From Zasmidium citrigriseum (lineage: Eukaryota > Ascomycota > Dothideomycetes > Mycosphaerellales > Mycosphaerellaceae), in the NCBI GenBank assembly GCA_002786025.1, contig NHNW01000071.1, positions 1 to 64,000 on the forward strand: a stretch of DNA of 64,000 bases. The letters are read 5' to 3'. This document shows positions 6,147 to 27,058 of the stretch, in pieces. Position numbers and translations under genes: made by a program. The stretch's first letter is position 1. Each line of letters begins with the position of its first letter. The notes under the pieces were generated by a model. That model saw only the letters and a program-made list of their open reading frames with translations, was not told the origin of the DNA and did not search any database.

Positions 6147-7514
6147 ATGAACGCCCTAATGGAAGACTTCCGTTCCACCACGGATCGCAAGCACTCCAGG
6201 ATGGAAGATCGGGAGCTTTCAATGAAGGCAAAGCAGTACATGGGAAGCATCGGCGCAACGTACAGGAGTGAGATCATAACAGCAGCCAGCGGTCTCTACC
6301 TGTACACCTCATCCGGCCACAAATTCCTCGACTGGACATCTGGCCAAATGTCCTGCTTGCTGGGCCACGGTCACCCAGAGATCGTCAAAGTCATCGCCGA
6401 GTACGCAGAGAACCTCGACCACTTATTTAGTGGTATGCTTTCTCCGCCTGCAATCTCACTGGTAGAGCGTCTCGTCAATATGCTGCCACCAGGTCTTGAC
6501 AAAGCTTTCTTCCTTTCCACCGGCGCTGAGAGTAACGAGGCGGCCATCAAGCTGGCGAAGATGTATACCGGCAAGTTCGAAATCGTTGGACTGGGAGCAA
6601 GCTGGCATGGTATGACTGCTCAAGCACTCGGAGTTCAGTATCGATACGGACGGAAAGGATACGGTCCGTCTATGCCGGGGATGTTCGCCTTGCCGGCACC
6701 AAATGCATACCGCTCAAGATTCCGCAAGGCAGACGGAAGCTATAACTGGGAGGCTGAGATGATGCACGGCTGGTCCATGATCGACATGCAGTCGTGCGGC
6801 TCGTTGGCGGCGTGTATCGTGGAATGCATTCAGTCGTCGGCTGGCATCCACGTCCTCCCGGAAGGATACTTGAAGAGGCTTCAGCAGGAGTGCAAGAAGC
6901 GAGGGATGTTGTTGATTGTTGATGAAGCCCAGACGGGAATCGGTCGCAGCGGAGACATGATGGCAATCATGCATGAGCAGATCGTCCCGGATATTGTTAC
7001 ACTGAGCAAAACGTTGGGTAATGGGATGGCGTTGAGCGCAGTCGTCACCAGCGCTGAGATCGACGACACATGCAAGTCGCGAGGCTTTTCCATGTATACC
7101 ACCCACGCCAACGATCCATTGCCGTGTGCTGTCGGAGACAAAGTCCTGGAGATCGTCATTCGAGACAATCTGGCAGATCATTCCAAGGAAATGGGTCATA
7201 TCCTTCGAGCTGGCCTGCGCAATCTGCAAGCCAGATACGGCTGTATTGGCGATGTGCGCGGCCGTGGACTGATGGCTGGCATGGAGATTGTTACGGACAG
7301 AGAGTCAAAGTCGCCTGCAGCCGAGCTAGGTCGAAGCATTGCAGAGAAGGCGTTCGAACTTGGCCTGTGGGCCAACTTGAGCAGCGACTCGTACTTCAGC
7401 GGCACTTTGAGAATCGCGCCGCCAATCGTGATCACGGAGAAGGAAATCCTAGAAGGTCTGCAGATTCTGGAAGAGGCTCTCGCAGTAATTCCTGGTACGA
7501 TGCCTTTCCAATAG
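6147..7514 (+). CDS. 2,2-dialkylglycine decarboxylase-like aminotransferase class III
   Basis: A PLP enzyme of aminotransferase fold class III. Known bacterial dialkylglycine decarboxylases convert alpha,alpha-dialkyl amino acids such as 2-aminoisobutyrate plus pyruvate to CO2, ketone and alanine. This protein follows that subfamily closely: DWTSGQMSCLLGHGHPEIV, HLFSGMLSPP, FFLSTGAESNEAAIKLAK, SWHGMT, VDEAQTGIGR, and the PLP lysine in TLSKTLGNG (Lys288). GDVRGRGLMAGMEIV and the RIAPPI segment sit near the end. It is a single 455-codon exon. I chose the ATG at 6147 because upstream residues show no family similarity; 6045 is the alternative. Its 3' end faces that of the Zn2Cys6 regulator, 22 bp away. 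Confidence 0.88.
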   Translation: MNALMEDFRSTTDRKHSRMEDRELSMKAKQYMGSIGATYRSEIITAASGLYLYTSSGHKFLDWTSGQMSCLLGHGHPEIVKVIAEYAENLDHLFSGMLSPPAISLVERLVNMLPPGLDKAFFLSTGAESNEAAIKLAKMYTGKFEIVGLGASWHGMTAQALGVQYRYGRKGYGPSMPGMFALPAPNAYRSRFRKADGSYNWEAEMMHGWSMIDMQSCGSLAACIVECIQSSAGIHVLPEGYLKRLQQECKKRGMLLIVDEAQTGIGRSGDMMAIMHEQIVPDIVTLSKTLGNGMALSAVVTSAEIDDTCKSRGFSMYTTHANDPLPCAVGDKVLEIVIRDNLADHSKEMGHILRAGLRNLQARYGCIGDVRGRGLMAGMEIVTDRESKSPAAELGRSIAEKAFELGLWANLSSDSYFSGTLRIAPPIVITEKEILEGLQILEEALAVIPGTMPFQ

Positions 7515-7536
7515 CAAGGGGTATGATGCTGCTTGA

Positions 7537-9489
7537 TTAGGAGAGCCCTGGGATAAGCCAGTCATCAATCCAATTTTCCCATGCGAAGGGTGTGTCCGGT
7601 GTGTCAAAGCCAATTTCATTCATTGAGGAACGATCGTCCGTAGTTCGATGCTTCGAGATCTTATCCAAGGTTTGACCGTAGTACTCAATGCATGGATCTG
7701 CGATATCCCAAGCGGCCTCCGTTCGATGCCGACGTAATGCGTCCATCATTTGCTCAGCGAGACTCATCGTCCAGCCTGCTTCGATGGCCAGAGTCTCTGC
7801 CTGCAATACTGTTCGAATGAGAAACGTCATCACCATCAACAGCGCAAGCCCCATCGTTGGCATCCAGAAGCAATTCAGTTGCTCGTCATGAAGTTCTTGA
7901 AGGAACAGTACGACCTCTTCTGCAATCCGCAAAGCCGACTGGACGTGCCCTCCCTTGTGCTTTGTAACCAAATTGATGCGCTCCTGCAAGAATTTGACGA
8001 TGAGGAATGCTAGACGCAGATTTGCTGAGCCTGGGATGGAAAGATCGTTTCCTCGGAGGATAATATTACGGCTGACTCCGGTGCTCGAGTCGGCCCAGGC
8101 TTGAAGTCGATCTTTGGGTTCCTGTGCGATGCTCAAGTTCTCCTTGATCGAATATAGCAGACCCAGTTGAGGCGTCAGAACATCTTCGGTCAACGTTACT
8201 AGATGAATGTAAATTGCTTTCTGTCTTCTCTCGTTTTCAGGTAGCTTTTCAAACCACTGCTGTTCGAGACTAGGCAACGGAACGTCGCTGCCGTCGATGC
8301 TTATAAGCGGCGGAACACCAAACGCAAGACTTTGCCTGTCGGTTTCGTTGTCGGCAATTCAATGAAGTGTCATCGCGGAGGGTAGATTATCTCACCACCT
8401 GTCGAGAACCACCAGTGCCCGCCAGACATTGACCCGGAAGGTCTTCTCGTGAGTTGGGATGTCCCAGCGAGTGGGATCTCTGTGCAGGCCAAGGGTATAC
8501 GCCATTGCCACAGCAAAGCCTAGTTGGCCTGCATTATTGAAGACCATCGACGTTGGGCGACCAGAGATGTTGAGTAGGATGGCAGCAATGGTGGAGATGC
8601 TCGGTCCGAGACGCATCTCCAGGAACAGAGCTTCGTTAGCAAGATTCCAGATAAATCTTTGGTCCGGTCGTCGGCAAGAGACAAGTTTGGAGCTTGAAGA
8701 CCAGTAGGTTAAGGAGTGTGCGTAGAGGCAAGCCAACAACGCAGGCGACATATCGGTTTGTGAACCCTGGATATGGAGCAGGACATTGTTCCCTCCCACG
8801 GCGGGGAAGCAGTAGCTCTCCTTCTCTGTGTGTCTGATGCAAGTTAGTATTGAGAATCATCCAGTAGCAAAGTTTTCCTACATCTGAATCACGTCCTCTT
8901 GCCAAGGTTCTATCAGCTTCTCAATCACCTCGAGCTTTGCCTTTGCTGGATTGAAAGCTGTGTTTTGCCCGACAGGCCTCCTCCTTGCTTGTGTGAAGAC
9001 GATTGGTGTAGAGTCCATGTCCGAAGGGCGTGAGCTGAATGTTCTGCCAGGCAAAGTTCGTCGTGTGTCGTCCTGCTCCAGCAGGTTCGAAACGAGATCG
9101 CTATCGCGAGCGAGGACAGGTCCGATGTACCTCTGGGCGAAAGTTGCTTGCTCCGGCGACTCCAATGCCTGTGGCCCATGACAATCATCATGAATTGACC
9201 CGCCATCGGAAGCTGGCACAGGAAGGGCTTCATCTCCCGCAGATAGAAGATGGGGATCGCCTCGCCTCGATAAAGCTGAAGCTACAATTGAAGAGTCCTC
9301 GATGACATCTGGAAGCTCACTCGTCTTCATTCTTGTCCTGCCCTTGGTTCTTGTTCGGATCGGGGGAAAGGCACACTGCGTCTCGTGAGATCTGCACATC
9401 ATGCATGACGGCGAAAGCTCTGGCTCCACTCGGCATTGCGACTTTCGTTGACGGCATGCGAAGCACGCTGCCACTCTCCGTTTTGCCAT
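7537..9489 (-). CDS. Zn2Cys6 transcription factor with fungal-specific middle domain
   Basis: A nuclear DNA-binding regulator. The N-terminus has the binuclear zinc cluster: Cys9, Cys12, Cys19, Cys29, Cys32 and Cys39. The middle domain is recognisable from ESYCFPAVGGNN onwards, then AMAYTLGLHRDPTRW and LDRQSLAFGVPPLI. Exons are 9489-8882, 8833-8399 and 8335-7537 (introns of 48 and 63 bp), giving 613 codons plus stop. The ATG at 9489 is chosen because the in-frame codon at 9513 is GTG. It lies between the dialkylglycine decarboxylase and an MFS transporter on the same strand, so it may regulate this small group. The target genes are inference. Confidence 0.87.
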
Positions 9490-9697
9490 AGAGGAAAGGC
9501 TGTTGGCCGTCACCGCGGCATAATGAGCACATTTAAAGAGATGATCGAGAGGGAGGATGAAGAAGCTCGACGCAGAGGGGAGAGAGAGAGTCTGCTTGCC
9601 CGCGGCCCGCGGCGTTCCTGCTGCTCAGGCGCGGGAAGCGCATAGAAGGATGTTCCGCAAGGATTCTCGGATGGAACAGCTTGGATGTATATCCTTC

Positions 9698-11467
9698 TCA
9701 ATCGCTGGCGATTGCAACACTCTTCGCCCTGATAGCTGCACCAAACACATACAGCACGAGCGGGATCGGTATCATCAGGGCGGCGATGAATCCAAAGATG
9801 CTCACACCCCATCCAACCCCGAGATCATGCAGCATGTACGAAGTGAAGAGCGGGAATGCCACCGCAAAGACACTTCGCCATAGAATGTTGGCCGCCAAAG
9901 CAGATGCCGCCACGTGCTGGAAGGTGTCGACAACGTAGCTGTTGGCCGAGTTCATGATGGTCATGAATCCGAAGCCAATGAAGACTGCCACCGTCAGATT
10001 GTGATGGATCTCATTGTGGAGGGTTCACTTACCAAGGCCGATAATAGGAACAATCCAGAAGATATCCGGTCCCGACGACCATGCCAGCATGAAAAGCCCT
10101 CCTGCAAAGAAGACAGACCCGATCATGACTGGCGGTAGCCTTGCTTCCGGCACGGACTTCCCTCCGTTCGCCTTCAATCGATTCATATAGAACGGTTGAT
10201 TGAAATACGTGGCCAATACTCCAATGACGATCCCGACCAGCATCGCGAGGAATGGCAAGGCTCCAACGACTTCATTCCAACCTTGGACTTCTTGGAAGAT
10301 GATCGGGACTGCGCTGAGCGAGGCATACAGCACACCAAATGCAAAGGCTTGATACCTGTATCTCATCGGTTAGTTTGGAGAAGCAAAGATGTTCTCCAGA
10401 CTTACGTTGCCATAAGAAAGCCGATAGGTGTTATGAGGATCTAGAACACTGTTAGAGGCGTCGAAGTGCAATCCAGGCATCTGTACTCACTTTGAGCGGC
10501 CGTACAAGATAGGTTCTTGTTAGGCCAGATACAGAGACTTGAGTCTCTTCATGCTTTGCGTGTAGCGCCCAATTCCCACCATGTCTTAAAGTCTTGGCCT
10601 TCCAGGCCAGCAGGGTGGCTTCATGAGTCTCATCGAGCATGATCATTCCAAGCACCACTTGAAACATGATCCAGATACCTGTAATGTACTGAGTCCAGCG
10701 CCAGCCAAGGCTGCGATTCATGACCAGAGCACCGCCGATCAAAGGGCCGACCAGAGGGCCTCCAACGTTTGAGACAGTATACAGAGCCATAGCAGCTCCG
10801 CGCTTGTCGGGAAGAAAGATATCAGCCAGCACGCCACCGGCATTCGATAGCGGCGCACTGCAGAAGAAGCCTTGAAACTGCATTGCGTCATGTTCAGCAC
10901 TCCCGATCCAACTCGCGAGGCCTGGGAACTTACAAAGCGGCATATCATGATCGTTTGGATATCTTTGCCAGCTCCTACTCCAAAAGCAAAGCAGCCCCCG
11001 ATGAAGACGGGAACCAGTATGGACAGCTTTCTGCCGTAGAATTCGGACAGAGGAGCCCATAACAGCGGTCCCAGTCCGAATCCGACCAGAAAAAGAGATA
11101 TGCCAAGCGTGGCTATTTCGGTTGACACGCCATAGGCTTCTGCGATAGGAGCAATGGCAGTGGAGAAGACGCTGGAAGCGAATGTGGACGTTGTGGTTGT
11201 TGTCTTGTGTCTTGAAGTTAGCTTCAGTCTGCAATGAATGTGGCAACTCACAGCGTAGAGAAGCACCGTCGCAATCTTCTTCCTCGGAGCCCAGTTACGA
11301 GGACGATATGGATCTCCGTTGGCACCGAAATCTACCAGCACCTCGGCTGAGGTGTTCTCTTCGTCTAGAGGATGGTGGAATCGTGGCTCTGCATCTCGCA
11401 TGCGAATGGACGAAATGAAACTTTTGCTTCGCGGTGGGCTCTTCTTGGGAAGAGATTCTTCTGACAT
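9698..11467 (-). CDS. MFS transporter, DHA1/polyamine-transporter-like
   Basis: A predicted 12-helix plasma-membrane drug:proton antiporter of the DHA1 group to which fungal polyamine exporters (TPO-type) belong. Visible signatures are a charged N-terminal tail, NGDPYRPRNWAPRKK before helix 1, LGISLFLVGFGLGPLLWAPLSEFYGRK (motif A loop), SNVGGPLVGPLIGG, GWRWTQYITGIW, and the late segment SANSYVVDTF. Six exons fit: 11467-11252, 11203-10934, 10877-10491, 10440-10406, 10355-10033 and 9984-9698, giving 505 codons plus stop. The 35 nt exon 4 supplies ILITPIGFLMA, which joins RPLK to YQAFAFGVLYASL as the family expects. The start at 11467 is the first ATG in frame. It lies head to tail with the Zn2Cys6 gene. 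Confidence 0.87.
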
Positions 11468-11994
11468 GACGTTGTAAAAAGGCAAATGGTCTCGGGGAAT
11501 GCTGAGACTTCATACGATCTCAGGAGGTCTGAAATTGAAGACTTACTACCAACGACTGCGTTCATCAACGTCGGTCTTTATACAGGACTCCATTTGCCGT
11601 GCGCGGCTCAAACATGACCGTTTCCATCATCGTCATCGAAATCGCTTTGACTGCGCTCGGCCGCCATGCTCACTCGAAATTTCATGTTCGGTTGGTCTCC
11701 GTGGCGAGGAAGTTTTCGCAGGAGCGAGAGGACGTCGACTTCCCAATAGAACTATTCAACCAATCGGAGCACAACATTCTCGGGTCCGAGACGTCCGAGA
11801 CTTTTGTGTTCGAACTCGTCCTCGCTCCCTTCTTCGAGGTTCATCTTCATCATGCGTGAAGACATTATGTTGAGAACCATTGACTGCTTGCTTTCCGACG
11901 CAGCCTTGCACAGCGCAAGACGTTGTACGGTCGTCGCAGCAGCCTTGTCCAAAACGTTCTCGAAGATTGACTCTGTCCCCAAACACGACGATAA
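11468..11994. other. Intergenic, MFS promoter and 3' side of the phosphodiesterase
   Basis: This 527 bp stretch lies between two minus-strand genes. It should hold the MFS promoter nearest 11467. Open frames here (for example around 11499-11873) have no start context, no splice support and no family resemblance. No repeat is seen. Confidence 0.5.
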
Positions 11995-13404
11995 TTACAA
12001 GATACGAAACTTGCCCATAAGGCCATAATGATCGCTGACCCAAGTATCAGTAGTCGTGAACTCCGCATCCTTGAACGCATCTCGTCCTTCGCGACGGCTC
12101 TTTTCCTTCAACTCCACCGAGATGTATCGGTACTCAGGCTTCGAAATGACTTGACCCAGACTGTCGACGACCTGGCTCTTGTACTCCCATCTGTAGGCTT
12201 CGACGGTCGTTTGAAGCCCAACTCCCAGTCGTCGAAGTCCTCTGGTCAGTTGGTCCCCTTGCGTCATTGGGACCAGGTCTACAAGTCCGGTGAAGAGGAT
12301 TTTGTCAAGTCGCTTTCCACTTCTACGGCTGTTTCTTTGTTGATAACCCCAGGTATGACCCTTGGCTAGGCCGTTGGTGAGGTCCTTGTTGCCCCCCTTC
12401 CTGACTGGGACGTCAGCTTCTGGACCACACTCCCAACCATCCCGGAGTTGCACATCTCCGGACTTTGGGTACTCGTGCTCTGAGTTGTCAATCGCATTCA
12501 TGTCACCACCGACGATGCCGCCGACAATGGCGAGCTCCTCCTGGGCTGAGTCTCTCAGCAAGCTGGAAATCATTGCGAGCTGTCCATGTCAATATCGTCT
12601 TCCCTCAAAGAGAGACTCGAGATGGGTGGTGCAGACTCGCAAGACCTTGTGCCGGTCAGAGGCCTGCTCAACGCCCTGCACCGAGATGTCCGCCACCAGC
12701 ACGTCTCGTCCCATTCCAGTGTTGAAAGGAACTCGAAAGGTGGTGGTGATAGGCAGATCATTCGACACCAGCATAGCTGTGAAATACCGAGAGGCTTTCC
12801 AGAGGACATCGTGCATGACGAACGTTTCTCCCACTTTGTCATCGCGGACCTCTTCAGGGGGCTGGACGGTCGAGATGTTGAAGTTCCGTCTGATCCAGTC
12901 GTGCTCAAGCAAAGCTTCAAGTGACTGCAGTCGGACTTCCTGCAGCATGACGATGATGCGAGATACCGTATCTTCACAAACTTCTTGAAGATGTTCGATT
13001 GCAGCAGTAGCTCTCGCTTTTGGTCCAGGGCCAGGAAAAAACAGGCTCCAAGTGATTATCGTAAGCTCTTCGCCTCTCGCCAGAGACTGTCCGGTCGATT
13101 TGCGTGTTGTCCATTGGAATTCCGCATAGTCGTAGGAGTGGAACGGGTAGCTGTATGGCTTTGGCGCCTCCTGCAGAACAGGTGGCGGAGGTAGACGATT
13201 CCGCCGGAAGTAGAAATGCTGATGCAGAGTCATAGCCTCAAAGTCATTCCTCGTGCCCTTTGAATTGGTAATTTGCCCGTGGCGATTCCCGGCGAACAGC
13301 TTCCCAGACTGGAAGCCAGACAGCAAAGGGATTGTGCGCCGACGCATAGCGACAAGATCGAAGAGCGGCAGTGTTACTCGAGACAAGAGGAGAGTGAGCC
13401 TCAT
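11995..13404 (-). pseudogene. Endonuclease/exonuclease/phosphatase (TDP2-like) gene with in-frame TGA
   Basis: The 470-codon frame encodes an Mg-dependent EEP-fold phosphodiesterase. Motifs occur in the order of the tyrosyl-DNA phosphodiesterase 2 group: ITWSLFF (where TWN is usual), IVMLQEVR, TTHLESL, GGDMNAID and SDHYGLMGKF near the end. TDP2 enzymes remove topoisomerase adducts from 5' DNA ends; that activity is not certain here. The frame is broken once, by TGA at 12589-12591, between HLESLFEGRRY and HGQLAMISSLL. Coding continues in the same frame on both sides and no intron signals surround it, so a CGA-to-TGA change is the simplest reading. It may be a recent pseudogene, a strain polymorphism or a sequence error. 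The conserved Asn of TWN is also Ser. Confidence 0.75.
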
Positions 13405-14152
13405 TTAAACATACTCAGCACCCTTGCCAACTGCACAGACGCTTCACCTGGGTTCCAATTTCGATCGGAAAGTTCCATGCGTCCGCAACGATACAATGGA
13501 GGTAGCTGTTACCACAAGTACATTCTTGATTCTTCTCCCATTCATGGTCAAAGTCTGTAGGGTAATACACTTCCACACTGCCGTTGGAAAGCAAAAAGGT
13601 TTGCCTTACAGCTCATTGACATCACTCTCTCCAAAGGCGAGCAGGAAGATCCAGCGTCTTTAGCCAGGACTACGTCGACGTTCGCACCTGCACTGGTTTT
13701 GTTTGAGACACGCTGTGTCGACATCGCAGGTTGAAACAGGAGTGGAATGTCAAAGTTGAAGCATGTACTGCAGACCAAAATAGTATATAGAAGTGCACGA
13801 TCCAACATTCGTTCTTACAGGGAATGCATTTTGTGTATGCCTTCCACTTTCGTCCCACCCTACTATTCGGCCTTTAACAGATTCTTTGATGTGGAATGCC
13901 AAACGAACGATTGCTCTTCTCGTACCGAGAATGTCTTCAACTGTCGCTATGGGAAGCTTCGTCGAATTTTGGAGGTCGCAAAGTTGGAGCTGCTATCTTT
14001 GAGACAAGAGTGCGAGTCGAATCGGAACATACGCGACCCCCTTGTTGTGCGGAACAGTATGTTGGAAGATGCGGTCTTTGCTTCGAAATCATGGTTTTGA
14101 TGTTTCTCTCTTCCATGTCCCAAGTCCAAAAACATGACCCCTATTCTCGCAA
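13405..14152. other. Intergenic, phosphodiesterase promoter side
   Basis: This 748 bp stretch lies upstream of the minus-strand EEP gene and downstream of the minus-strand flavin oxidase. Several 60-150 codon frames exist, none with a recognisable product or convincing splice pattern. Nothing else was seen. Confidence 0.5.
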
Positions 14153-15739
14153 TTATTCCCAGGCTGCATAGCTTCGATGCAAGACACTCTCCAAAGGCAC
14201 TCGCCCCAAGCGCTCCTTGGAAGCAACATACACAGGCGGAATCTTGCGAGCACTCTTTCCGAGTACAGAGTCCGCAATATGTTCGCCACAAAGCCAGGCA
14301 TTGACCATCCCCACGCCGTTGAAGCCTGCCGCGATCCATTCGCCTTTGCCAGCTCGACCTGATAGCTCTTCTGGCAGACGTCCAACCAATGGACACCCGT
14401 CGACAGTGTATCCCATCGTACCGCTCCAGTTGGCTTTGATAGGGCCTTGGACAGGCTGGCCGAAAGAGTCGTTCATGGCGTTGGCGAGACCATTGATGAT
14501 GTCGTTGCCGGCAATTTTGTCTTCTGCAGTGGAGACCTCTTCGAAGAAAGAGTCAATACCTACGCTACCATATGCGTATATGTCTCCTGTCTGGGGGCTT
14601 CGATACATGGATTGAAGCGCTCCTGGGACAGTGATGCACCAAGTGTTGGAGGAGCCACGGTTCTCGAGAGCTGTGGCCTTGGATTGAACCTGAGCAAAGA
14701 CTATCGTCAGCATTCTCACTGCTCTGTCGCATGGAGAATGATGTGCAAAGGGATACTCACCGTAACTGCACATCTCAAGGGATACACAAAACCCCTGATC
14801 GAAGGGATGAGATGTCCGGCGTGAGCATTGGTGGCATGAATGACGTGCTTTGCTCTGATCGATCCTCTTGGCGTCTTGACCGTGTAGAGTCCATCGTCGT
14901 TCCAGTTTACTTCGAGAGCCGGTGTTCGGGTTTCGATGGAGAATCTGTCGCCGTGTTTACGAAGCAGCTCTGAGAACAGGCCGGTGAACAGGCGGTATGG
15001 CCAAGCGGCACCGGCAGGCTGAACAGCGCCTCCAAGTGCATTCTCGATTCCGTACTTCTGGCAAAGGTATTCAGCAAGCCTTCTTCCGTAGGATCAAGTC
15101 TCTCACCTCCGACATCTCTTCTTTCAACAAAAGCCTCGCCCTTCGCCTTACATTGCCCAGATCCGCATCTAGAAGTGCGATCCGTTCTTCTGCAGTTGCC
15201 TTCGTCTTTTCGGTAGTAAAGACATGCAGCATCTCCAGCTGACGAAGCTCGCAGTACTGCTTGAGCTCCGGCGAGATCTCGTCTCCGAGCTGAAACAATG
15301 CGTCTTGGTTGTCCAGCGTAAACTCAACAACCTCTTTGGCCATCTCTTTGCCGTATGCGCCTTTCATGCCATGGTAGAATAGTTCAGGGATTGAGAGAAT
15401 GTGACCGCCATTACGACCGGTGGCTCCTGGCGAGACGTTAGTCGTGCAGATATTGCGAATGAGTTCGATCATACCGGATGTCAACGTTCTGGCTTCAAGT
15501 ACCGTAACTTTGACCTGATCATCTTGCTCCAGCAAGCGGCGAGCAATACTGCAACCTGTGATTCCAGACCCGATGATGATGACGTCTGTCTCCGCCGGGA
15601 GTTGATTAGACTGAGCATTGTATACGTCCAAAGTCGGTGGCTCTTGCCATAACGAAGGCAATGGGCTGTCGACTGGAAGTCCAGGATCTTTCTTCATGTG
15701 CTCAACGGCAAGCTTGGGGTCAGTGTTGGCGTGTGCCAT
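14153..15739 (-). CDS. FAD-dependent oxidoreductase, DAO family
   Basis: A predicted flavoenzyme of the D-amino-acid-oxidase/sarcosine-oxidase-like fold that oxidises an amine or amino-acid substrate. The dinucleotide-binding motif is VIIIGSGITGCSIARRLLE (Gly57, Gly59, Gly62), followed by GATGRNGGHIL and, near the C-terminus, GYTVDGCPLVGRLPE and WIAAGFNGVGM. Exons are 15739-15475, 15426-15107, 15057-14761 and 14689-14153, giving 472 codons plus stop. Intron 1 is 48 bp and stop-free, so it reads through in frame. It is called an intron because it has GT..AG and a CTAAC site and splits the conserved SGATGRNGG. No signal peptide is clear. The substrate is unknown. Proximity to the dialkylglycine decarboxylase hints at amino-acid catabolism. 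Confidence 0.85.
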
Positions 15740-16599
15740 GGGTTGCTCCAGGTACAATCGACTTGAGGTGTAGGAAGATCTTGTGTGCAATTGCAAGAGC
15801 TATAGTGAGTCCTCTCCAAAGAGTAGACATCTATATGTATCCCTTCAAGTCGTCTCTCTGCTCTTGGGGCTGTGCGGATGATTGTCAGCGGAGTGTGCTT
15901 GGCTACGTCTTGACACTGTCTCTTAGAAACTACACCGTTGGATGGGCCGTAGTATGCAAGATGAGCTTTCCGCTGTGGCAAGAGTAGAAGAATGGCTGTC
16001 CTACTTCTTTTTTCAGCCACCGATCGGCCTCACCAGCTCGATCAGGCTGCACGGAGCCCGCGCGACACGGCTTGGTCGCTTGGCATCATGTCGAAGGGCG
16101 GGACGTCTTACATACTCTTCACACAATATTTTGCATCTCTCATCATGCTTACCAAGTCCCGAAGAAAGCTTGCTGCTGACTCAAATGCATACCACGCCAC
16201 TGCTTCGTTCTGTGCGTTGGTGGACCGGGAGCGGATCATGTCTGCAGCGCAGCCCGTCGGAACAGCCCTGTGCTTTGATGCTGTGAAAGTTGGACATCAC
16301 CTTCTTAGTGACATCTGCTTCAGAGGTACTCTCCTCAATCTTTCGCCTGGGCTCAGGGGAAGACTGTTCCTTCATGGCTCGGAAACCAAGTCGGCTTGAA
16401 CGGAAGAAGTTTTGATTGCGAATGACTATACGAGATAGCATGATCAATTCTAAAGCCAATTTGGTACTGTGTCTCCCTCGAGTGATGCCGCGATGTCAAT
16501 CATCTCGCCCATTCATACTTTCAAAAGCGCATTGTTGCCGAGAAAACAAGAGCATGTCATTACCCGATCCTACACCAGGCTCTCTTTCCCGTTCCTTGC
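15740..16599. other. Intergenic, between flavin oxidase and microexon gene
   Basis: This 860 bp stretch holds the promoter of the minus-strand flavin oxidase next to 15739 and the 3' flank of the microexon gene. A 135-codon plus-strand frame at 15992-16399 shows no signal peptide, motif or codon pattern that would support it. Confidence 0.5.
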
Positions 16600-17355
16600 C
16601 TACCCGATGTAGCTAGAGCTGTCCTGCATTCTGTTAGTACCCTTATTCCAGACTTGTCTCAACCCGTACGTACACAGCGCTGAAGTGAGATGTTAGCTTT
16701 GTATTCATTTCGTTGCGGGAAGGACTTCTTACGCAAGTAGGTATCTACAGATTCAAAACGTGTATGTGTAAGCCGAGGTTTTATTGAACTCGCAGAGCTG
16801 TTGCTACAACTTACTCCGGTCTAATAGCCAGATCGCAATGGAATCAGCACAAAAAAGTTAGAGTGGACGGGCTGAGCTTACACAACGCTGTCAAATGTCA
16901 GTCTGAGTCTAGGCAGATAATCGACAAGTACTCACGGCACAAGGTGGGATGTTGTAGCATTTCTAAGGGCCGTGTTAGATGAGGGAACTTTTGAAGTCCA
17001 AACGTGGGTCAAGACGTACTCCCATACACTACGAGTACGTTAGTACGATCACGAAAGCTATGGGGGAATCTGGGGCAGCCGTTCTTACCAAACGTCCATC
17101 GTTGGCATCGTCTCGCTGCTCGATGCGTCAGTCCATAACCGTGACTTGTTGGACTGGATGTCGCACCCCATAGCAGTTCTGCTCGCAGTCCTCGATGGTA
17201 TCGAATGTCACCTGTTTGCAGCCAGCTGCCTTGCCATCGTCGCAGAGTGGTTGTGTGTCGCGAGCGAAGAGAGCGCTCTCGAAACCAACAACCGGATTGG
17301 CTAGCGAGAGTCCGACGAGTGGCGCGCATGCCATCAAAAGAGTGAAGAAGTGCAT
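16600..17355 (-). CDS. Small secreted ten-cysteine protein built from microexons
   Basis: No family is recognised. Exon 1 (17355-17167) encodes a signal peptide (MHFFTLLMACAPLVGLSLA) and four cysteines ending in CEQNCYG. Eight introns of 48-70 bp follow: 17166-17116, 17088-17029, 17019-16963, 16935-16888, 16881-16821, 16814-16745, 16732-16680 and 16673-16624. All have GT..AG ends, most with a clear CTAAC or CTGAC site near the acceptor. They leave exons of 27, 9, 27, 6, 6, 12, 6 and 24 nt, all phase 0, reading RDDANDGRL, CMG, KCYNIPPCA, RC, TG, IPTC, RC and DSSSYIG plus stop. The product is 101 residues with ten cysteines after the signal peptide. Size, secretion and cysteine content suggest an effector or antimicrobial role, which is inference. 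Without splicing, the frame stops soon after CYG. Confidence 0.72.
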
Positions 17356-18147
17356 AATTGGGTGTTCAGGATACAAAGTGGTTGGACAGGTGGGTTGGCA
17401 ACGAAGTAGCGGGCTTGAAGTACTTTGAAGTGGAGATTCCGGCTGAGTAGCGAGTTTTATGATCGTCTCCCTACGTTTGACCCCCAAGTGAAGGCCGCGG
17501 AATGATCTCAGCAGCAAATTGCTGTACCGCGACCATTCGTTGATCAAGACAGCTCCGAGGGCATACAATCCTCCAGCCTGAAGAGAAACGCTAACGAAGG
17601 ACAGTGGAGAAGGCTGCATACACATTTGCCGGCGTCTTGGCTTACACTATATACCCTATACTACATTCGTCGTTGTTTACGATCGTAGCAGACGTCCACA
17701 TCCCGAACGGACGATTCAGTGATGATTTCTACAACTGTAGTATGGTGACAGCTGTTTTCATGGCACTAGAAGGATCCTGACGCTGTGTCTTGACCTCCGA
17801 GGAGGTTGTCTAGTCTCTGACGATGCACACAGCAGAGAGTAGTGTATTGTTGGTGACGGAATGCTGTTCCATGGTCTTCAATACTCGCGATACTTTCGAA
17901 GATCCGGAGCGACTAGAGCAATCTTCATGCATTCGTTGAGTGCGAGAAGTGACTAAATGTTGCGTTGGAAGGCAGCCACATTCATCAGCCCAGAAATGGT
18001 CGACTCGGGAAGAAAGGCTCCCAATGTCATGGAAACGAGTACAAAGCGTTACTCTGCCCTCCTGATGGTTGAAGTGACTCGTCTGCATCTTACGCTTGCA
18101 GCTTCTGCTTTCACACCACATACACCCATTCTTTCACAAGATTAACC
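17356..18147. promoter_or_regulatory. Shared region between two divergent secreted-protein genes
   Basis: This 792 bp region separates the microexon gene (minus, ATG at 17355) from a second secreted-protein gene (plus, ATG at 18148). A TATATAG-like element lies on the minus strand near 17650. The spacing to the ATG is long, so a 5' UTR or another start site is possible. No coding signal was accepted here. Confidence 0.4.
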
Positions 18148-18685
18148 ATGAAGCGCATGACTGCGTTCGGCATGCTCCCAGCCTTCACGGCGGCGCTGAT
18201 TGCCAACAACACCGCAATCCCTGGCATGAAGATCGTCAAGCTCGACGACGATACTTCAATGAGTCGCCAGTATTACAGCCCTGATGCTTTTCCCTGATTA
18301 ACGTTAACGTTCACCTTGCAGACTCTTGGCCCAGTCGACAGATCCAGGTCCAACAACTTTCGACTTCTACTACGGCCAAGAAGGAGGATGCGACGCATTC
18401 GATGTCGAGTTTGTGACCAATGTTGGCCAGGACTGTGACAACTTCAACGGACATCCGCCTGCATCTGTCTACTGGAACAACCCGAGCAACCCCAATGATC
18501 CTGACAACAAGCCGTATTGGAACCTGATCTTGTACTTCCAAGGGGACGAGTGTCCTGTGATTGGACATCCGATACAATGCGATACAGTTGGCGCATATTG
18601 TGTTACTTTCGCGGAGGGTAGTGCCAGACCTCTGAGCTTCAATATTGTGGAGTCGACCACGGGAATTCGCAACTGTGACGTTTGA
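18148..18685 (+). CDS. Small secreted protein of unknown function
   Basis: Two exons, 18148-18269 and 18322-18685, give 161 codons plus stop. The intron is 52 bp with GTATTA donor and CTTGCAG acceptor, and joins SMSRQ to LLAQSTDPGP. The N-terminus (MKRMTAFGMLPAFTAALIA) looks like a signal peptide, though short and polar at its start. The mature part has six cysteines spread from YYGQEGGCDAF to the C-terminal NCDV, and a Pro/Asn-rich stretch (YWNNPSNPNDPDNKPYW). I do not recognise a family. It is divergent from the microexon gene and could share its regulation. Confidence 0.7.
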
Positions 18686-19942
18686 AGAGTGTGGAGGAGC
18701 TCAGTCCATAGTTGAGAGGTAGTCTTACGAAACACCTGTCTCTGCTTCTCTCGCAAAGTGCTCTCAAATGATCGCTACGATTCCAACGCTCGACAAATAC
18801 ACTCCCCCATGTGAAGAAAATGCTCAGTCCTTGAGGCACGGATCCGGCATGGCGAACGGTCGCTCTTGCATTTTTGCCACAGCCTTACGGCGACGCCGAC
18901 TATTGTAAGCGATTGGCCTTCGCCACGGGTTCGACATCATGGGCGAACACAAGACGTGCAATGCGGCCGCGATATCATGCGTACTTGGTGAAAACGTGCA
19001 AACACATGTGCCGATGACGGCAAGACGGTCCTTTGCTTGCCGCCGATACTACTTTCGTTCCTCGGAGGAAGCAGCCACCTCTTTAGGGAAGGTGTGCGTA
19101 GCCTCTTTCATCATTCAAAGCTTCCTTTCATACATTCTTCGCCAGCACCGACGCTTAGATGACGGTATAAGTCAACTACTGAAGCTACGCGGGCACTGAA
19201 GAAGCTGAGTTGCGTTTTGGCGGAGCGTGGTGGCTTTCTACTCTCGCCATATCATTCCTTCGCCCAATCTTCCTCCAAGCTCGTGGCATCTCTAATGCAC
19301 ATGTCCTTCGTGCTACGGACTAGTCACTCTTAATCGACGACGTCTTCACGAACGGCCTCTTCGCATCCACCGTCCGCGCCGCGGATGGCGTGTAGACCAG
19401 CGGCTACTTCATTGGAGAGCTGCAAGTAAACACTGAAAGCCTATTACGGTACTCTTGGCGTCGGAAGGACAGTCGCTTTGCTTTGGCCATTGACATCCTT
19501 CAAGCCATGCGTGGAGTCCAGCGATATCAAGCGCTCTGCCTGGCGCACGAACATCAAGCACTTTGGGTGAAGCATCGAACATGAGCCAACCAGGTCTCAG
19601 TTGTCCGACTGCTCCACGGAGATATTGAAAGCACCTGGAAGCCATTGTGATGTCCTTCAGTTCTTGGCCTGCATCGACCTCGCACTCAACGATCAGGGCT
19701 GTTCCATCGTTGCATCAGCAATGAAATGTACGTCAAGCACGAAGCTCGCCGACCGGGAGAGTGGAGGGAAGGGCGGAAAGATGCGATGGCTTTTGGCACT
19801 TGATACCCATGTGAGAGCAAATGGGACATCGAATGCCTATAAATACAGCAATGGCCAACGCATCCATTGATGTCTGCACAACACCAACTCATCAGACTCT
19901 CTCTCCATTGTTGCAGGATATCTCTCTCCTTTGCCAACCACC
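18686..19942. other. Intergenic, 1.26 kb
   Basis: No gene is supported. A minus-strand frame at 19409-19645 and its upstream continuation look mildly protein-like, and a plus-strand run near 19330-19430 slightly resembles a transporter fragment. Both are interrupted and lack splice support, so they may be relics. The right end holds the promoter of the gene at 19943. Confidence 0.45.
19838..19845 (+). promoter_or_regulatory. TATA box candidate
   Basis: TATAAATA lies 98-105 bp upstream of the ATG at 19943, a spacing compatible with a fungal core promoter. It is followed by a pyrimidine-rich leader (CTCTCTCC) before the start codon. Confidence 0.5.
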
Positions 19943-21042
19943 ATGTCTGCAGCCGTAGATGTCATTAGTGTCTTGGGCACAGGCATCACTGCCTACAGCT
20001 TCCTTTCGGGCCTCTTCCCAGGTCAGCAGAAGATGGGTGCCACCGTCGAGATCCGCACAAGCGAAGGCATCAACCCAAGCACCGGGAAAAAGGAAAGCAG
20101 CAACACTGGCGGCGACATCCGCAACGTCTGGGGTTACGATGCAGGTGGAAAATTACTGGGCTATAGCGGTGGAGGCCACATCGGAGCCGGAGGCAAAAAG
20201 GACTTCAAGATCGACCAAGGCAACCAGAACCAGGCACTCTACATCGACGTCGTTGTCGACGAGGATGCTGTTTGTATCCCCGTCATTTCGGTGACGCAGC
20301 CTGGTGATGGGCTTAACTTTGCCTGGATCGGCGACGTCTTCCAGGGATGCGGGCTTGCTAACTACTATGGCAATGTGGATGTTAGTGGAGATGGAAACAT
20401 GCCTCGATGCGGGTGGTTGGGTATGTTTGTGCGAAGAGCGCCAACGATACCTGGGCTCTTTCACAGAGATTCTACATTGCCGCTGCTGACAGTCAGGACA
20501 GATGCCAATCATCAGGCCGGCGTTCAAGCGGCATCATTCAAATGGTACCTCCCAGCCTTCAGCGTCGGCCACGGCCAGTCGTATAATACAGATCCAGACT
20601 ACTACTGCCACCCTCGCCCAGTAAGTCGAGACACGGCAAGATGCACTTCAATTGTCTCTAAGCACATTCCATGCAGTTCGAGATCCGCTACGACGCCCAG
20701 CCGATCGAAAAGCGAGACGAAGTTGAGCGCCGCGAACGTATCCGACGAGGCTTCAAGTTCAGCGAGTTGATCATTAGTCCTCACGCCCAACATCCAGCGT
20801 CAGAGCTCTGCGAAGACCCAACGACTGCTGGGCCAGACTTTGTCTCGCTGCACGAGAAGACCTTCTGCGACATGGGCAATAAGAAGTGGTACCAGCTCTG
20901 CCATGAGGATGCCGGCATTCTGGACAACTGCTTTGCACTGGACATCGTGAACAAGACTTTATCGGGTATCTTTTCGCACCCAAAGGCCCTTGGTCTGGAC
21001 ACGGATGTGTTTGGATACGAGAGGCTGACCCAGTGGATTTGA
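19943..21042 (+). CDS. Conserved-looking hypothetical protein, 347 residues
   Basis: Function unknown. Exons are 19943-20620 and 20677-21042; the intron is 56 bp and joins YYCHPRP to FEIRYDAQPIEKRDE. The N-terminal 25 residues (MSAAVDVISVLGTGITAYSFLSGLF) are hydrophobic and could act as a signal or anchor. The first half is Gly/Asp-rich (YSGGGHIGAGGKKDFKID). The second has a charged run EKRDEVERRERIRRGFKF and ends with four to five cysteines, including CEDPTTAGPDF, FCDMGNKKWYQLCHEDAGILDNCF. The gene model is well supported by frame and splice sites. A TATAAATA lies about 100 bp upstream. Confidence 0.78.
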
Positions 21043-22223
21043 GCCTTCATGCGAGGATCTAAGGGTGTCGACGCCGGACACAACAGAAGGCTCATTCGTA
21101 CAAGTGGAGATGGTATATAGATTGCTGATGGTGGAGGTAGATTCAGAACTCGAGAAGCTGCTTTGCAAAGTCAGCACGGTTTCCGAAACGATACTGATCA
21201 GAATGGATGAACTTGTTGATAAGACATCGTTGCATTCTTCCCGTTCTTCTCCAGGCTGCCCTCTCGACTGTTCTCGCAAGAATGCCATTTCACCTGGTGC
21301 CAAAAAGATCATCCCAAAATAAATGGAAGCACCGCAAACCTGTTGACGCAAGAGTTCGTGCTGACGTCGTACAGCCTTGGCTGCAATGCTAAGACGGATG
21401 GACAGGGGCACTCGGCAGCCAAGCCCGGCGCAGCCTCTGCCACCTCCTATAAAACCAACGTCTTCCTCTCTAAACTCCTACTCATCCCATCGACTGATTT
21501 GTTGGGTCAATCATCTCGCCGCGGATAGAACATAGTCTGTATCATGACTCTTGCGACCCAAGCAACACTGTCCAACAAAGCACTCCATCTTCGCCTCCTC
21601 CGAACTCACCCGATCTTGGCTCCTTGACACCAATCTCTTGGAGTGGACCTCTTCAGTCTTGTCATCCTGCACCTCCATCTTGGCCAGTCGCACGTCTGCT
21701 TGCCCAGGAAAATCACGACGATGCTTCGCCTGGACGTGTTTGCGTGTCCGTCTTGGGATGTTTCGCATCATCATTTAACCACGTCACAGTTTCCGCCAGC
21801 CGCCGACAATCTTGCTTGTATATTTGGAAACTGTCCCATGCGGTCGTGCGCTGCCGAGAAGATGGCATTCCTGCCCAGGTGTCGCAGGCTGGGAGAGAAT
21901 GCGTAACAAGGCGCGAAAGGGTGGGAGATGGTGTCAGGAGGCGCCCAGATCTCAACACTGGTGTGCTGGGGTTGGGAATTCTTCATTTCTGGAGTCTTGC
22001 CACCTTCGTCTCTTTCTCTTTACCCCCTTCTCACTTTCTTTTTCCAACCTTGACGCCATCGATACTCCACGATTCCGCTACTGACTGGAAAAACACCTTT
22101 GCAGATGACTAGCACAGCGTTCGACCGACCATCGGCCCAGGGCGACGAATAACGCCCATCCGACCTCGACTTCCAACCAATATCAATCACAGACACATCG
22201 AATCCCGGATCGAGTTTTCAGCT
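21043..22223. other. Intergenic, upstream of the Na+/H+ antiporter
   Basis: This 1.18 kb stretch probably includes a long promoter and 5' leader for the gene at 22224. It has a TATAAAA at about 21448 and pyrimidine-rich tracts around 21465-21490 and 22005-22050. Frames of 60-160 codons here have no recognisable product. Confidence 0.45.
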
Positions 22224-24148
22224 ATGCCGCTCCTGGACCTCAGCAACCTCAACGTCTCACTCTCCATCCTCGGAACATTCATCGTCGCATACGGCTTTCT
22301 CTCCGTCAAAATCAAACAAGTCTGGTACTTGGGCGAAGCACTCCCAGCCGTAGTGATAGGAATCGCACTCGGACAAGTCGGGGCCCAATGGATCGATCCA
22401 CGGAAATGGGGTTTCGAGAACGGCAGCGAGCAACAGAATGCCATTACGCTCGGTCTCTGTCGAGTCGTTATCGGCGTACAGCTCGTCGTCGCTGGATTCC
22501 AACTCCCGGCCCGGTACCAACTGCAACGATGGAAAGCCATGGCGATTTGTCTGCTCGCGGCCATGACATTGATGTGGCTTTGCACAACTGGGTGTATCCT
22601 GGCCACGGTTCCGAAAGTCTCGCTGCTGGCGGCTCTGGTCATTGGGAGTTGCGTGACCTGCACCGATCCGATTCTTAGTCAGGCTATTGCGAAAGGACCC
22701 TTCGCCGACAAGTACGTCCGTCGACCTCTTCGAGAGATCATCTCGAGTGAAGCAGGCGCCAATGATGGCTTTGGATTTCCGTTCTTGATGCTTGCTGTGT
22801 ACCTGATCCGGTACGCTTCAAATCCGGAACTCATCGACGAATCCGCTGTCGCCGACTCCCATGGCCATCGCCTTCTCCTAGCCCGAAGTCTTGTATCTCG
22901 AGCAACACATTCCGATCTCGGCCGACTGGAAGGAGGACCCGGCATGGCGATCCAGCAATGGGTAGTCGAAACATGGATCTACTTCATCTTGCTATCCGTC
23001 ATCTACGGCGCAGTCGTCGGGTTCTTGAGCATGTACGCCATCAAATTCGCCTTGCGTCGCCGATGGATTGATGGTGAAATGTTCCTTCTTTGGCCAGCTG
23101 CCCTCGGATTGTTTCTCGTCGGGACCTGCGGTCTTTTCGGGACGGACGATCTTTTGGCTTGTTTCGTTGCTGGGAACTGCTTAAACTGGAACGGGCAGTA
23201 TCTCGAAGAGACCGAACTGCGACATGACGAAGTCAACAGCTGTAAGATTAACCAAATCCACTCGCCGATGGACTTTTGAGCTGACCTCATCATCTAGGCA
23301 TCGATGTTCTCCTCAATTTCGGCGCTTTCATGTACATTGGCGCCATAATGCCCTGGAGCGAATTCGAAGACCCCAACGGAACAGGTCTGACCTACGGCCG
23401 TCTGATCGGCCTAGGAATCCTCGTCCTCTTACTGCGCCGCATTCCCGCCATCTTCGCGCTGTACAAGTTCATGCCCGAAGTTTGCCAAGACTGGAAGGAA
23501 GCCTTGTTCATGGGCTACTTCGGACCGATTGGTATCGGCGCCGTCTTCTACGTCGAACACACGCGACATCTCTTCCCAGAGCCTGGCGAGGCACTCACGA
23601 CGGAGGAGAACGATCTGACAGCTGTCATGATCCCGGTCGTGTACTGGCTGGTACTCTTCAGTATCATCGTCCACGGACTTTCAATTCCGGCGCTCAACAT
23701 CTTCTTCAAATGGAGAGGCGTACAGCCCATCTGCGACGAAAAGGGTGGCGTCGAGATGGACATGCTCAGCGTCCGGACGCCCTTGCCCAAGAATTCTCGT
23801 CGAAGCACCAGCGTTGGCCCAAGCAGAAGGAATAGCATCATTGTTCACAATCGGTTCAGTCGAGGATCAATCGCCGAGCAGCTGGAGTGGCAGGATAGCG
23901 AAAGGGCCGACTTCCAGCGGAGGTGGCCTCGGCGGCGACTCTCTGTTCTTCAGGGCGCAGATCTCGAGAGATCAGACTCTCAAGTTTCGCTTGTAAAGGA
24001 TGGTCAGGATGAGCAAGACGATTGGGTGCCCGTTCGCAAGTACGTGACAGAGCCTACTCGTGCGGCATTCACGACTCGACGACGGGAGATCTCATTTGCG
24101 GATGAGAAGGATCGAGGTCGGAAGCGATCCCTTGGAGGCGACGTCTGA
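22224..24148 (+). CDS. Plasma-membrane Na+/H+ antiporter, Nha1/Sod2 type
   Basis: A predicted CPA1-family cation/proton antiporter that exports Na+ (and possibly K+) for salt and pH homeostasis. About twelve helices span residues 12 to roughly 470. The family's SSEAGANDGFGFPFLML carries the ion-site Asn-Asp pair. CTDPILSQAIAKGPFADKYV and DLLACFVAGNCLNWNGQYLEETE also match Nha1. The hydrophilic C-terminal tail (from KWRGVQPICDE) is Arg/Ser-rich, as in fungal Nha1 regulators' targets, but short. Exons are 22224-23241 and 23298-24148, giving 622 codons plus stop. The intron is 56 bp and splits a Cys codon (S-C-I-D-V). The gene ends tail to tail with the MATE gene, 173 bp apart. Confidence 0.9.
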
Positions 24149-24321
24149 GCGATGCGGTGAGGTGATCGGGAATACACGGATAGATTTTACGATACAGCAA
24201 AGCGGCGTTCAGCGGTTTTCGGCCTTTGGTGGTGAATAGATGGAAGGCGCGGGCGAGCACAACATGATATGGCTGGGGCAAGCGATATTGAGGGCCGAGA
24301 AGCTCACATAGGTTACAGGCT

Positions 24322-25830
24322 TCATCGACCTTCTGCAATACCCTGCAGAGGACCACTCGAGGTCTTCCTTAGCCTCATCCAAACCACCACCGCTTCCACA
24401 ACCGTGATGATCCCCAACCCACTGCCCAATCCAATCCACAACCCTCGGATGCCGAGTTTTGGAGGACCCAGTTCCAAGAGCAGCGAGATCGGAACGGCGT
24501 AAATGTAGTTGACAGTGACAGTGACCCAGGCGCCCACGCTCTGCCAGCCAAAGCCCCGGACGACACTATGCGGCCAGTTGGAGGTAGCATCAAAGACGAC
24601 GAAGCCAGCGACGTAGGGCAACGCCAGCTTCACCAGTGCAGCAACTTCCTCGTCGTCGACAAGGAGTCGCAGCATCAGAAAAATAATACCGCAGCTGAGC
24701 AGCGAGTCCAGGATCCCGATGCAGGTGAAGACGAGAGCGTACCATCTCATGACTTTGGTGACGGCGGCGGTCAGTCCTGCTCCGATGAGCTGGCCGATTC
24801 GGGTGCTGTAGGCGATGGAAGCGGAGAATGGGATGTGCCAGAGTACGACCGCCGTGGTGGACAGGTATGTTTGCGCAGCCAGAGACTCTGTGCCCACGTA
24901 CGAGGTGCAGAAGGTGAGGATCTCGAAGCAAAGCCATTCGCTGAGACACATGAGAGCACCGGGGATGGCTAGTAGCACCATGACCTTCCAGTCTTTCCGC
25001 CAGCTATTTCGAATCTCCTCGGCAGGCGGCCAGCACTCCAATGTCGTAGGTTTGACGAGGATGGAATATCCAGCAAGCAATACCGGTCGGACGAGATTGG
25101 TTAGTGAAGCAGCCAAAGCAGCACCAGCTACCCTCATTCCAGCTCCTTGCACCAGCGCCCATGTGAGAAAAATTTGGATGGGTACGCAGACGACAAGGAC
25201 GAAGAAGCCCGCAAGAAAGTTCCCCTGAGCTTGCATAAATCGTTTGCCGGCCTCGAAAGTCGCATAGCCCGGGATACTAATCAGCAGATAGCGGAGAAAG
25301 GTTCCAGCATGCTCAGCAAGCTCAACAGAGGGAACATGAACGAGCAAAAGAATCCTCTCGGAGAATAACCACAGCAGGGCAATGGGGATGGCGACCAGAT
25401 GCACAAAGATGGTGAAGCGGATGGTGTGCATACCGACGTCGGTCAGGCGCGAGGCACCGTAGGCTTGAGAGCAGAGGGTGTCCAGGGCGGTGGCCATGCC
25501 TTCGAAGATGGCATATCCGAGGATGTTGCTGGTGGTGATGCCCAGCGAGACTCCCGCGAGCTCTTCGGTTGCGAACTTGGAGGCCACAATGATGACGATG
25601 AGTGAGTTCGCATATTGCAACAGATAAGTCAGGGTCAATGGTGCCGAATAGCGGAGGAAGATGGCGGCTTCTGCTCGTAGAGAGACTTCGCGAATGTTGA
25701 CGGCACGGTGAATGTTGGCGAGGGTACTGATGGCGGTCGGTTCGTCGTCGTCGCAGCTGCCCTCGCCAAGGAGCGGCGTTCTTTCCATGTCATCTTCGCG
25801 GCCGTCATTCTCGATGCTGGGTGTAGACAT
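24322..25830 (-). CDS. MATE-family multidrug/toxin extrusion transporter
   Basis: A single exon of 502 codons plus stop, starting at the ATG at 25830. MATE proteins export cationic or organic compounds in exchange for H+ or Na+. The N-terminal 50 residues are acidic and cytoplasmic (EDDMERTPLLGEGSCDDDE). Two MatE repeats follow: LTYLLQYANSLIVIIVASKFATEELAGVSLG and CSQAYGA in the first, and TESLAAQTYLSTTAVVLWHIPFSASIAYSTRIGQLIGAG in the second, with twelve predicted helices. Length matches yeast Erc1-like members. The promoter side faces the large retrotransposon insertion, whose left target duplication lies about 800 bp upstream of the start codon. Confidence 0.92.
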   Translation of the reverse strand: MSTPSIENDGREDDMERTPLLGEGSCDDDEPTAISTLANIHRAVNIREVSLRAEAAIFLRYSAPLTLTYLLQYANSLIVIIVASKFATEELAGVSLGITTSNILGYAIFEGMATALDTLCSQAYGASRLTDVGMHTIRFTIFVHLVAIPIALLWLFSERILLLVHVPSVELAEHAGTFLRYLLISIPGYATFEAGKRFMQAQGNFLAGFFVLVVCVPIQIFLTWALVQGAGMRVAGAALAASLTNLVRPVLLAGYSILVKPTTLECWPPAEEIRNSWRKDWKVMVLLAIPGALMCLSEWLCFEILTFCTSYVGTESLAAQTYLSTTAVVLWHIPFSASIAYSTRIGQLIGAGLTAAVTKVMRWYALVFTCIGILDSLLSCGIIFLMLRLLVDDEEVAALVKLALPYVAGFVVFDATSNWPHSVVRGFGWQSVGAWVTVTVNYIYAVPISLLLELGPPKLGIRGLWIGLGSGLGIITVVEAVVVWMRLRKTSSGPLQGIAEGR

Positions 25831-26625
25831 GTAGGGGAAGGGCTAGGACGACAGAGGGCATGAAGCCGTATGTCGATTATCATACGCCGTTCGCAGCGAC
25901 ATCGATGGGTTAGGTAGGTAGGGGAAGTTGATTACGCGGAGTTCGGCCTCCCGTGCCTTCTTGCATGAGCTGCGTCGCTGCTGCATGGCTGGTCGATCGG
26001 CACTCGGATCCGTTCTTTGGAAACGCCATGGCAAGTTCTTGCACCACCGTCGGCGTCGCCTTCTAGTCAAAGCAGGGTAATGTTACAGTTCACCGATCCT
26101 GGCCGAGATGCTTGAGTAGAGGTGTTGGCTTGTCGGACAAGTGAGTCCCATCGGCAGGCGCCTTCCAGCCATTGCAAAGCTATGGGGGCGTTGGCAGCTT
26201 TCTCGCCTGGCCAAGTTCAACGCCATGAACAGCTTGAGGAGATGTTATGAACACCCTTCGGCAGGAGGACGGAGCCGAACAGCCGTTCTGGACAGGCCCG
26301 TCGCCTCCATTTCGGGCCGAAGAGAGCCACATTGCCAGCCTCCAGCCCGACCGCCACTCGGCTGGTATCCTTTGCTACCTTTTGCCCATTGAATATCGAG
26401 TCGAACAGCAATACGCTTCAAAATCGGCAGAGTACTGATGTTGACTCCTCACATCATGCAGCAGTCGCTTCGGCTTTGGCGACGTCGGCTATCAGGAAAT
26501 CCAGTCTTCTTTTCGAGTTTGGCTTGACGAGGCCATGAATGTCCCCCAAAATGATATCGGAGTCAGATGTTAGGAGTCTGATAGAGAGGGACAAGAACAA
26601 GAGCAAACACGAAGTTGACCCCTTC
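25831..26625. other. Intergenic, MATE promoter side up to the transposon insertion
   Basis: This 795 bp of ordinary-composition sequence carries the MATE promoter. Short frames at 26141-26538 have no support. It ends exactly at the AAAAC target duplication of the retrotransposon. Confidence 0.55.
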
Positions 26626-26630
26626 AAAAC
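26626..26630. repeat. Target-site duplication AAAAC, left copy
   Basis: The five bases directly before the left LTR are AAAAC. The same five follow the right LTR at 39935-39939, marking one insertion event. Confidence 0.88.
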
Positions 26631-26756
26631 TGTTGTGCAGCAGGATTATGGCCTTCATATAATAATTAAATGATTGATTAAAGATCAACTATCTGAGAGG
26701 TGCGAATTCTGATGGTGTGGCTTCCTTAGCACTTACGTGACCCTGTAGGCATAACA
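26631..26756 (-). repeat. Copia-type LTR, left copy (element's 3' LTR)
   Basis: A 126 bp long terminal repeat. It begins TGTTGTGC and ends in ATAACA, a RIP-altered form of the GCACAACA seen in the right copy. It aligns over its whole length with 39809-39934. I count about 16 differences, all transitions, which fits RIP. Because the element lies on the minus strand this is its 3' LTR. Confidence 0.88.
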
Positions 26757-26767
26757 CTCCCCCTTAG
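26757..26767 (-). other. Polypurine tract of the copia element
   Basis: On the minus strand CTAAGGGGGAG directly precedes the 3' LTR, where plus-strand DNA synthesis would be primed. Its position supports the minus orientation of the element. Confidence 0.7.
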
Positions 26768-27058
26768 CATTTAAACAGATTACTTAATACTATTTAATTG
26801 CTGTTATAAGTACCTATTAGGCTTATATACTCTTATTACTAGCTTAATAAGTTACTTAAAGAGTAGGTGCCTTCTAGAAATATATATAGTAGTTACCTAA
26901 CTTCTAGTAAACTTCCTACTATACTAGGGTATAATAATAACCTTCTCTTATAGTTTAAACCTTCTCTTATACTACAACCTTTCTACACTACTTTAGTACA
27001 CCTTAATCTACTTAAATACTTCTATACCTCTTCTAATATTATTAATAATAAGGTATAA

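Follow-up and report, generated by a model that had tools for sequence, protein, structure and literature searches.

A predicted fungal gene for a small secreted cysteine-rich protein with a series of phase-0 micro-exons

The serial micro-exon layout is known from secreted proteins of parasites and aphids. As described for Schistosoma mansoni (PMC10526429), micro-exon genes (MEGs) have exons of 3 or 6 to 81 nt, most of them a multiple of three in length, separated by introns of 0.1–5 kb; the 35 MEGs code for at least 87 verified proteins, and their products are secreted by way of a signal peptide from genes that automatic annotation handles poorly. The bicycle genes of aphids, in the account given by PMC9168663, are poorly conserved putative effector genes with many unusually small internal exons, nearly all of a single phase (phase 2), with ~17 exons on average and many genes per genome. 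In filamentous fungi the layout is hardly described. According to a 2024 study (PMC11121469), no functional micro-exon was on record there before the 20-nt exon of Xlr2, earlier tests having been made only in Schizosaccharomyces pombe. This exon of the filamentous ascomycete Trichoderma virens, which had been missed by gene prediction, bears cysteines (PCRRCE), stands singly, is not a multiple of three and belongs to a glucose-regulated transcription factor. For the intron-rich white-rot fungus Phlebia radiata, the excerpt of PMC6540522 remarks in general terms on genes with exons of a few codons, some of less than one, and names no secreted micro-exon gene. A fungal secreted gene built of serial micro-exons was found in none of the literature matches listed; in five of those with a single occurrence of 'microexon', the term denotes a read-aligner setting.

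Here we describe a locus at 16600..17355 on the minus strand of a 64,000-nucleotide stretch of fungal DNA (the window). An earlier note had proposed a first exon of 63 codons, introns of 48–70 nt and further exons of 27, 9, 27, 6, 6, 12, 6 and 24 nt. Our gene model reproduces that structure letter for letter: nine exons and eight phase-0 introns end in a TAG stop codon at 16602-16600, and the spliced product is 101 amino acids long (translation of the nine-exon model). The parts are as follows.

17167..17355, minus strand: exon 1, 189 nt, 63 codons; signal-peptide-like N terminus and four mature cysteines
17116..17166, minus strand: intron 1, 51 nt; donor GTGCGA, CTGAC, CAG
17089..17115, minus strand: exon 2, 27 nt, RDDANDGRL
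17029..17088, minus strand: intron 2, 60 nt; donor GTAAGA, CTAAC, TAG
17020..17028, minus strand: exon 3, 9 nt, CMG
16963..17019, minus strand: intron 3, 57 nt; donor GTACGT, CTAAC, TAG
16936..16962, minus strand: exon 4, 27 nt, KCYNIPPCA
16888..16935, minus strand: intron 4, 48 nt; donor GTGAGT, CTGAC, CAG
16882..16887, minus strand: exon 5, 6 nt, RC
16821..16881, minus strand: intron 5, 61 nt; donor GTAAGC, CTAAC and CTGAT, TAG
16815..16820, minus strand: exon 6, 6 nt, TG; flanked by the two introns with the weakest branch sites
16745..16814, minus strand: intron 6, 70 nt; donor GTAAGT, CTTAC (no CTRAY), TAG
16733..16744, minus strand: exon 7, 12 nt, IPTC
16680..16732, minus strand: intron 7, 53 nt; donor GTAAGA, CTAAC, CAG
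16674..16679, minus strand: exon 8, 6 nt, RC
16624..16673, minus strand: intron 8, 50 nt; donor GTACGT, CTAAC, CAG; rival acceptor at 16619
16600..16623, minus strand: exon 9, 24 nt, DSSSYIG and stop TAG

The second half of the protein is encoded by eight tiny exons, the smallest two codons long. Structurally the locus is thus predicted to be a micro-exon gene (MEG-like): its very short exons are consecutive, all are multiples of three and all share one phase. With the MEGs it has in common many very short exons and a structure awkward for automatic annotation, its signal-peptide-like start may make a secreted product a further likeness, and the sequence supports the view that gene predictors would easily miss it; it differs in its introns of 48–70 nt and in being one gene. 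Membership of the schistosome MEG family, for which long introns are required, was rejected on that intron length. Likewise, with the bicycle genes it shares small internal exons of one phase, but that phase is 0 throughout, where bicycle genes require phase 2, and it has nine exons and a single copy; membership of that family was also rejected. Because these tested defining features, intron length and phase, differ, the gene is counted outside both families, though it may work like them; the likeness is one of exon layout. It resembles Xlr2 as a cysteine-bearing, easily overlooked micro-exon case, and Phlebia genes in having exons of only a few codons; unlike Xlr2 it has eight short exons in series and a predicted secreted product.

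The predicted protein bears out the earlier description of a signal-peptide-like N terminus followed by an even number of mature cysteines. The N terminus is hydrophobic (best 9-residue Kyte-Doolittle mean 2.44) and, with the cleavage site placed by eye after A20, the mature part has about 81 residues and ten cysteines, those of the tail being spaced C-x3-C-x5-C-x2-C-x5-C-x-C. Exon 3 begins with a cysteine codon, and exons 5, 7 and 8 each end with one. An IPxC..RC module is common to exons 4 and 5 (KCYNIPPCA-RC) and exons 6 to 8 (TG-IPTC-RC). Among 2,000 shuffles the likeness of the two was reached by 42 when scored with BLOSUM62 and by 80 when scored by identity, so the repeat is suggestive only. 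It nonetheless speaks for keeping the weak 6-nt exon TG in the model, since the second module then has the same C-x5-C spacing as the first. Within exon 1, positions 17173-17223 encode GC-x4-FxTIExC-x3-C, which resembles the end of Kunitz domains. A Kunitz domain was rejected: the only match among PDB sequences, to Boophilin, is insignificant (E 0.25 for the whole sequence, 36 for the FxTIExC stretch alone), and there is no Pfam match.

Splice-signal scoring places the donors of seven of the eight introns near consensus; that of intron 1 is lower and the weakest, while the weakest branch sites are those of introns 5 and 6. Eight CTRAY branch-like motifs occur on the coding strand from 17400 down to 16400, and every one is within a predicted intron, two of them in intron 5 and none in intron 6. 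A branch motif had been claimed near most acceptors, and CTAAC or CTGAC indeed occurs in seven of the eight introns, intron 6 having CTTAC. Exon 6 (TG) is the least certain exon of the model. The start codon at 17355 is a choice among in-frame ATGs: it was taken because the signal-peptide-like start lies there, but the frame of exon 1 is open upstream as far as an ATG at 17625, and within 17356-17660 a TATA-like stretch lies ~25 nt before that ATG.

How far such a series departs from chance was measured by counting chains of introns. An intron was defined as GTRNG, a branch motif and YAG within 44–80 nt, and the exons between as phase-0, stop-free and 3–60 nt long; the background was made up of the window together with 17 stretches of this genome of 10 kb each, 234 kb in all and scanned on both strands. 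At the locus the chain is eight introns with the branch motif CTNAY, and four and, separately, two with CTRAC. The CTNAY class was widened after CTTAC had been seen in intron 6; the result for the strict class is independent of that widening. Outside the locus, phase-0 chains reach at most two with CTNAY or YTRAY and at most one with CTRAC, and in 100 dinucleotide shuffles of window positions 4001-28000 (4.8 Mb over both strands) no chain exceeded two. With the phase condition dropped, one background stretch (L013) reaches three with all three branch classes and another (L005) reaches three with YTRAY. The introns of two signal-dense places, in L011 and L013, were listed and translated, and neither has eight in a row. 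In L013 (~8320-8555, minus strand) three strong introns follow one another, separated by exons of 16 and 59 nt and outside phase 0; this is the sole other place in the 234 kb with a three-intron chain under the strict branch class once phase is disregarded.

A parse blind to reading frame, which weighs the strength of splice signals and the length of introns by general tables for filamentous ascomycetes rather than by tables trained on this genome, recovers all eight donors and seven of the eight acceptors. The seven internal exons of this parse are all divisible by three, which freely varying exon lengths would give by chance about once in 2,187 cases; together with the model itself, this supports the claim that every exon is a multiple of three and every junction phase 0. 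For intron 8 the parse takes the acceptor at 16619 instead of 16624 (5 nt downstream), with which only one residue would follow the last RC. Past the stop codon it calls two further introns (16518-16467 and 16115-16071), and is therefore not free of false calls. The splice-signal score is 62.5 at the locus against 34.1 for the best non-overlapping window among 2,232 overlapping 800-bp windows covering the 234 kb (mean 6.0, sd 5.9). The lengths of the introns are not unusual, because those identified by eye in two ordinary neighbouring genes, for an Na/H exchanger (56 nt) and an aldehyde dehydrogenase (46 nt), are similar, and the removal of each restores an open frame.

The frame of the spliced tail is also distinctive in its cysteines: the chosen frame has six in 38 residues, the other two frames one and two. 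When exons of the same lengths were placed at random in the same stretch (200,000 drawn), six or more cysteines were found in 24 of 26,435 stop-free placements. The RC-exon pattern TAAC..YAG-CGNTGY-GTRNGT has a single match in the 44.4 Mb genome, at exon 8; its reversed control also matches once, elsewhere, and the match therefore carries no weight by itself.

The spliced protein has no homologue in a set of 5.8 billion proteins, in a search that can find only proteins already predicted from their genes and sharing three 5-residue words with the query; the set includes proteins of close kin (Zasmidium cellare matches for two neighbours). A Pfam profile search gave no family at E up to 10, NCBIfam gave nothing above cut-off and one match below it, over the signal region, and an Rfam search of the window gave no match. 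In the genome itself (44.4 Mb in 148 contigs) a protein search limited to exon 1 and a DNA search that skips very common words each match the locus alone, and by these searches the gene is single copy. A search of the assembly for 5.8S rRNA found no match; the rDNA is perhaps absent from the assembly, or was missed by this search.

Around the locus is a GC-balanced block of ~22 kb, with AT-rich, RIP-like blocks on either side. These latter, at 1-4000 and ~26000-40000, have a GC content of 0.30–0.41, a strong RIP-like dinucleotide bias and a composite index of 1.2 to 2.3. For two neighbours of the gene the best named matches are Zasmidium cellare proteins: a class III aminotransferase at 6045-7511 (82–83% identity; next named matches Clonostachys and Fusarium, 75–77%) and a MATE transporter at 24325-25830 (81–84%; next named matches Dothistroma, Lecanosticta and Fulvia, 67–68%, Mycosphaerellaceae-type fungi). 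The genome thus appears to be near Zasmidium cellare, of the family Mycosphaerellaceae, a placement resting mainly on the Zasmidium matches since the next matches of the aminotransferase are Clonostachys and Fusarium. The Z. cellare matches of the two proteins are PRZ48_010267 and PRZ48_010269 in one strain and M409DRAFT_70379 and _70377 in another, the two contigs concerned being equally long in either strain, so that, going by gene numbers, at most one annotated gene lies between them there. Here the two are 16.8 kb apart, and the interval holds MFS, DAO and Na/H exchanger genes as well as the micro-exon gene. From gene numbers alone this suggests that the block within 6045-25830 is peculiar to this lineage or has disappeared from Z. 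cellare; the micro-exon gene may be lineage-specific.

These observations of anatomy, departure from chance, frame and cysteines have to be set against several explanations. The finding was picked by a reader searching for oddities, and a chance run of splice-like sites would be one way to account for it; but the chain counts, the shuffles, the frame-blind parse and the cysteine placement test all oppose such a run, and we regard it as exceedingly improbable. Only slightly less remote is a special origin of the introns, as introner-like elements or stwintrons, with the tiny exons as by-products of intron multiplication or as sequence inside composite introns. Introner-like elements are reported, in the excerpt of PMC4457414, from Fulvia fulva and Dothistroma septosporum, and Fulvia is in the same family as Zasmidium; moreover 3 of the 28 intron pairs exceed z = 2, all of them involving intron 8 and scored without masking the branch motif that the introns share. 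Against this, a search of the genome with the DNA of the locus, in which very common words are skipped, recovers the locus alone and none of the near-identical intron copies that mark introner-like elements. Removal of an intron makes a GTRNG donor, a YAG acceptor or a CTRAY branch site across none of the eight junctions, which led us to reject stwintrons. That exon 1 alone is functional (63–75 amino acids, four cysteines), the micro-exon tail being a decaying or untranslated remnant with introns, seems to us quite unlikely: with intron 1 retained the frame continues for 12 codons to a stop within it (75 amino acids, four cysteines) and this intron has the weakest donor, but the seven exons that follow keep the frame and the tail has an excess of cysteines.

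The earlier note had also proposed that the protein could diversify by exon skipping. The proposal holds in so far as skipping any one of the seven internal exons in silico keeps the frame; it is weakened by the cysteine count, which falls to nine without exon 3, 5, 7 or 8 (ten remain without exon 2 or 6, and eight without exon 4). With four of the seven single skips giving nine, a cysteine would often lack a partner under simple cassette skipping, and for this reason constitutive splicing is ranked above the generation of isoforms. A fungal counterpart of the schistosome genes, in which combinations of skipped phase-0 cassettes would give several disulfide isoforms at a host interface, draws on the symmetry of all seven internal exons, on the cysteine codons at their ends and on the shared IPxC..RC module. 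It is opposed by the odd cysteine numbers, by the near-consensus donors, by the single copy with no family found in own-genome searches and by the fact that alternative splicing in fungi is mostly intron retention, and we hold it to be rather unlikely. The same low credence attaches to its broader form, that filamentous fungi evolved micro-exon secreted genes of their own, parallel to MEGs and bicycle genes, with phase-0 cysteine cassettes yielding several disulfide isoforms in this instance.

We consider it likely that the locus is a real and intact orphan gene, that its introns are removed constitutively by intron definition, and that it encodes a small secreted cysteine-rich protein with five disulfides and an extracellular role as effector or antimicrobial. 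Each intron would be recognised singly, by its own donor, branch site and acceptor within 48–70 nt; as each carries its own signals, the 6-nt exons would need no exon recognition and could be joined one after another, constitutively. Retaining any one of the eight introns in silico truncates or alters the tail, which is consistent with introns meant to be removed, and these effects together with the near-consensus donors read more like constitutive splicing than like tuned cassettes. The product would fold by way of five disulfides and act outside the cell, either on a host or as an antimicrobial, a role to which its size, signal-like start and cysteines point. Small secreted cysteine-rich proteins of Dothideomycetes include effectors and antimicrobials, and the predicted protein is like them in size, in its signal-like start and in its even number of cysteines; it differs in having no Pfam family, no NCBIfam match above cut-off and no homologue. 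To our knowledge its intron density is unusual for that group.

Should the transcript match the prediction, a filamentous ascomycete would be joining exons of 6 nt one after another to make a secreted cysteine-rich protein. To schistosomes and aphids the gene would then add another independent instance of one-phase micro-exons in genes for secreted proteins, possibly at a host interface, and it would offer a compact test of how intron definition handles exons of 6 nt. It would also mean that effector catalogues built from standard gene prediction can miss such genes.
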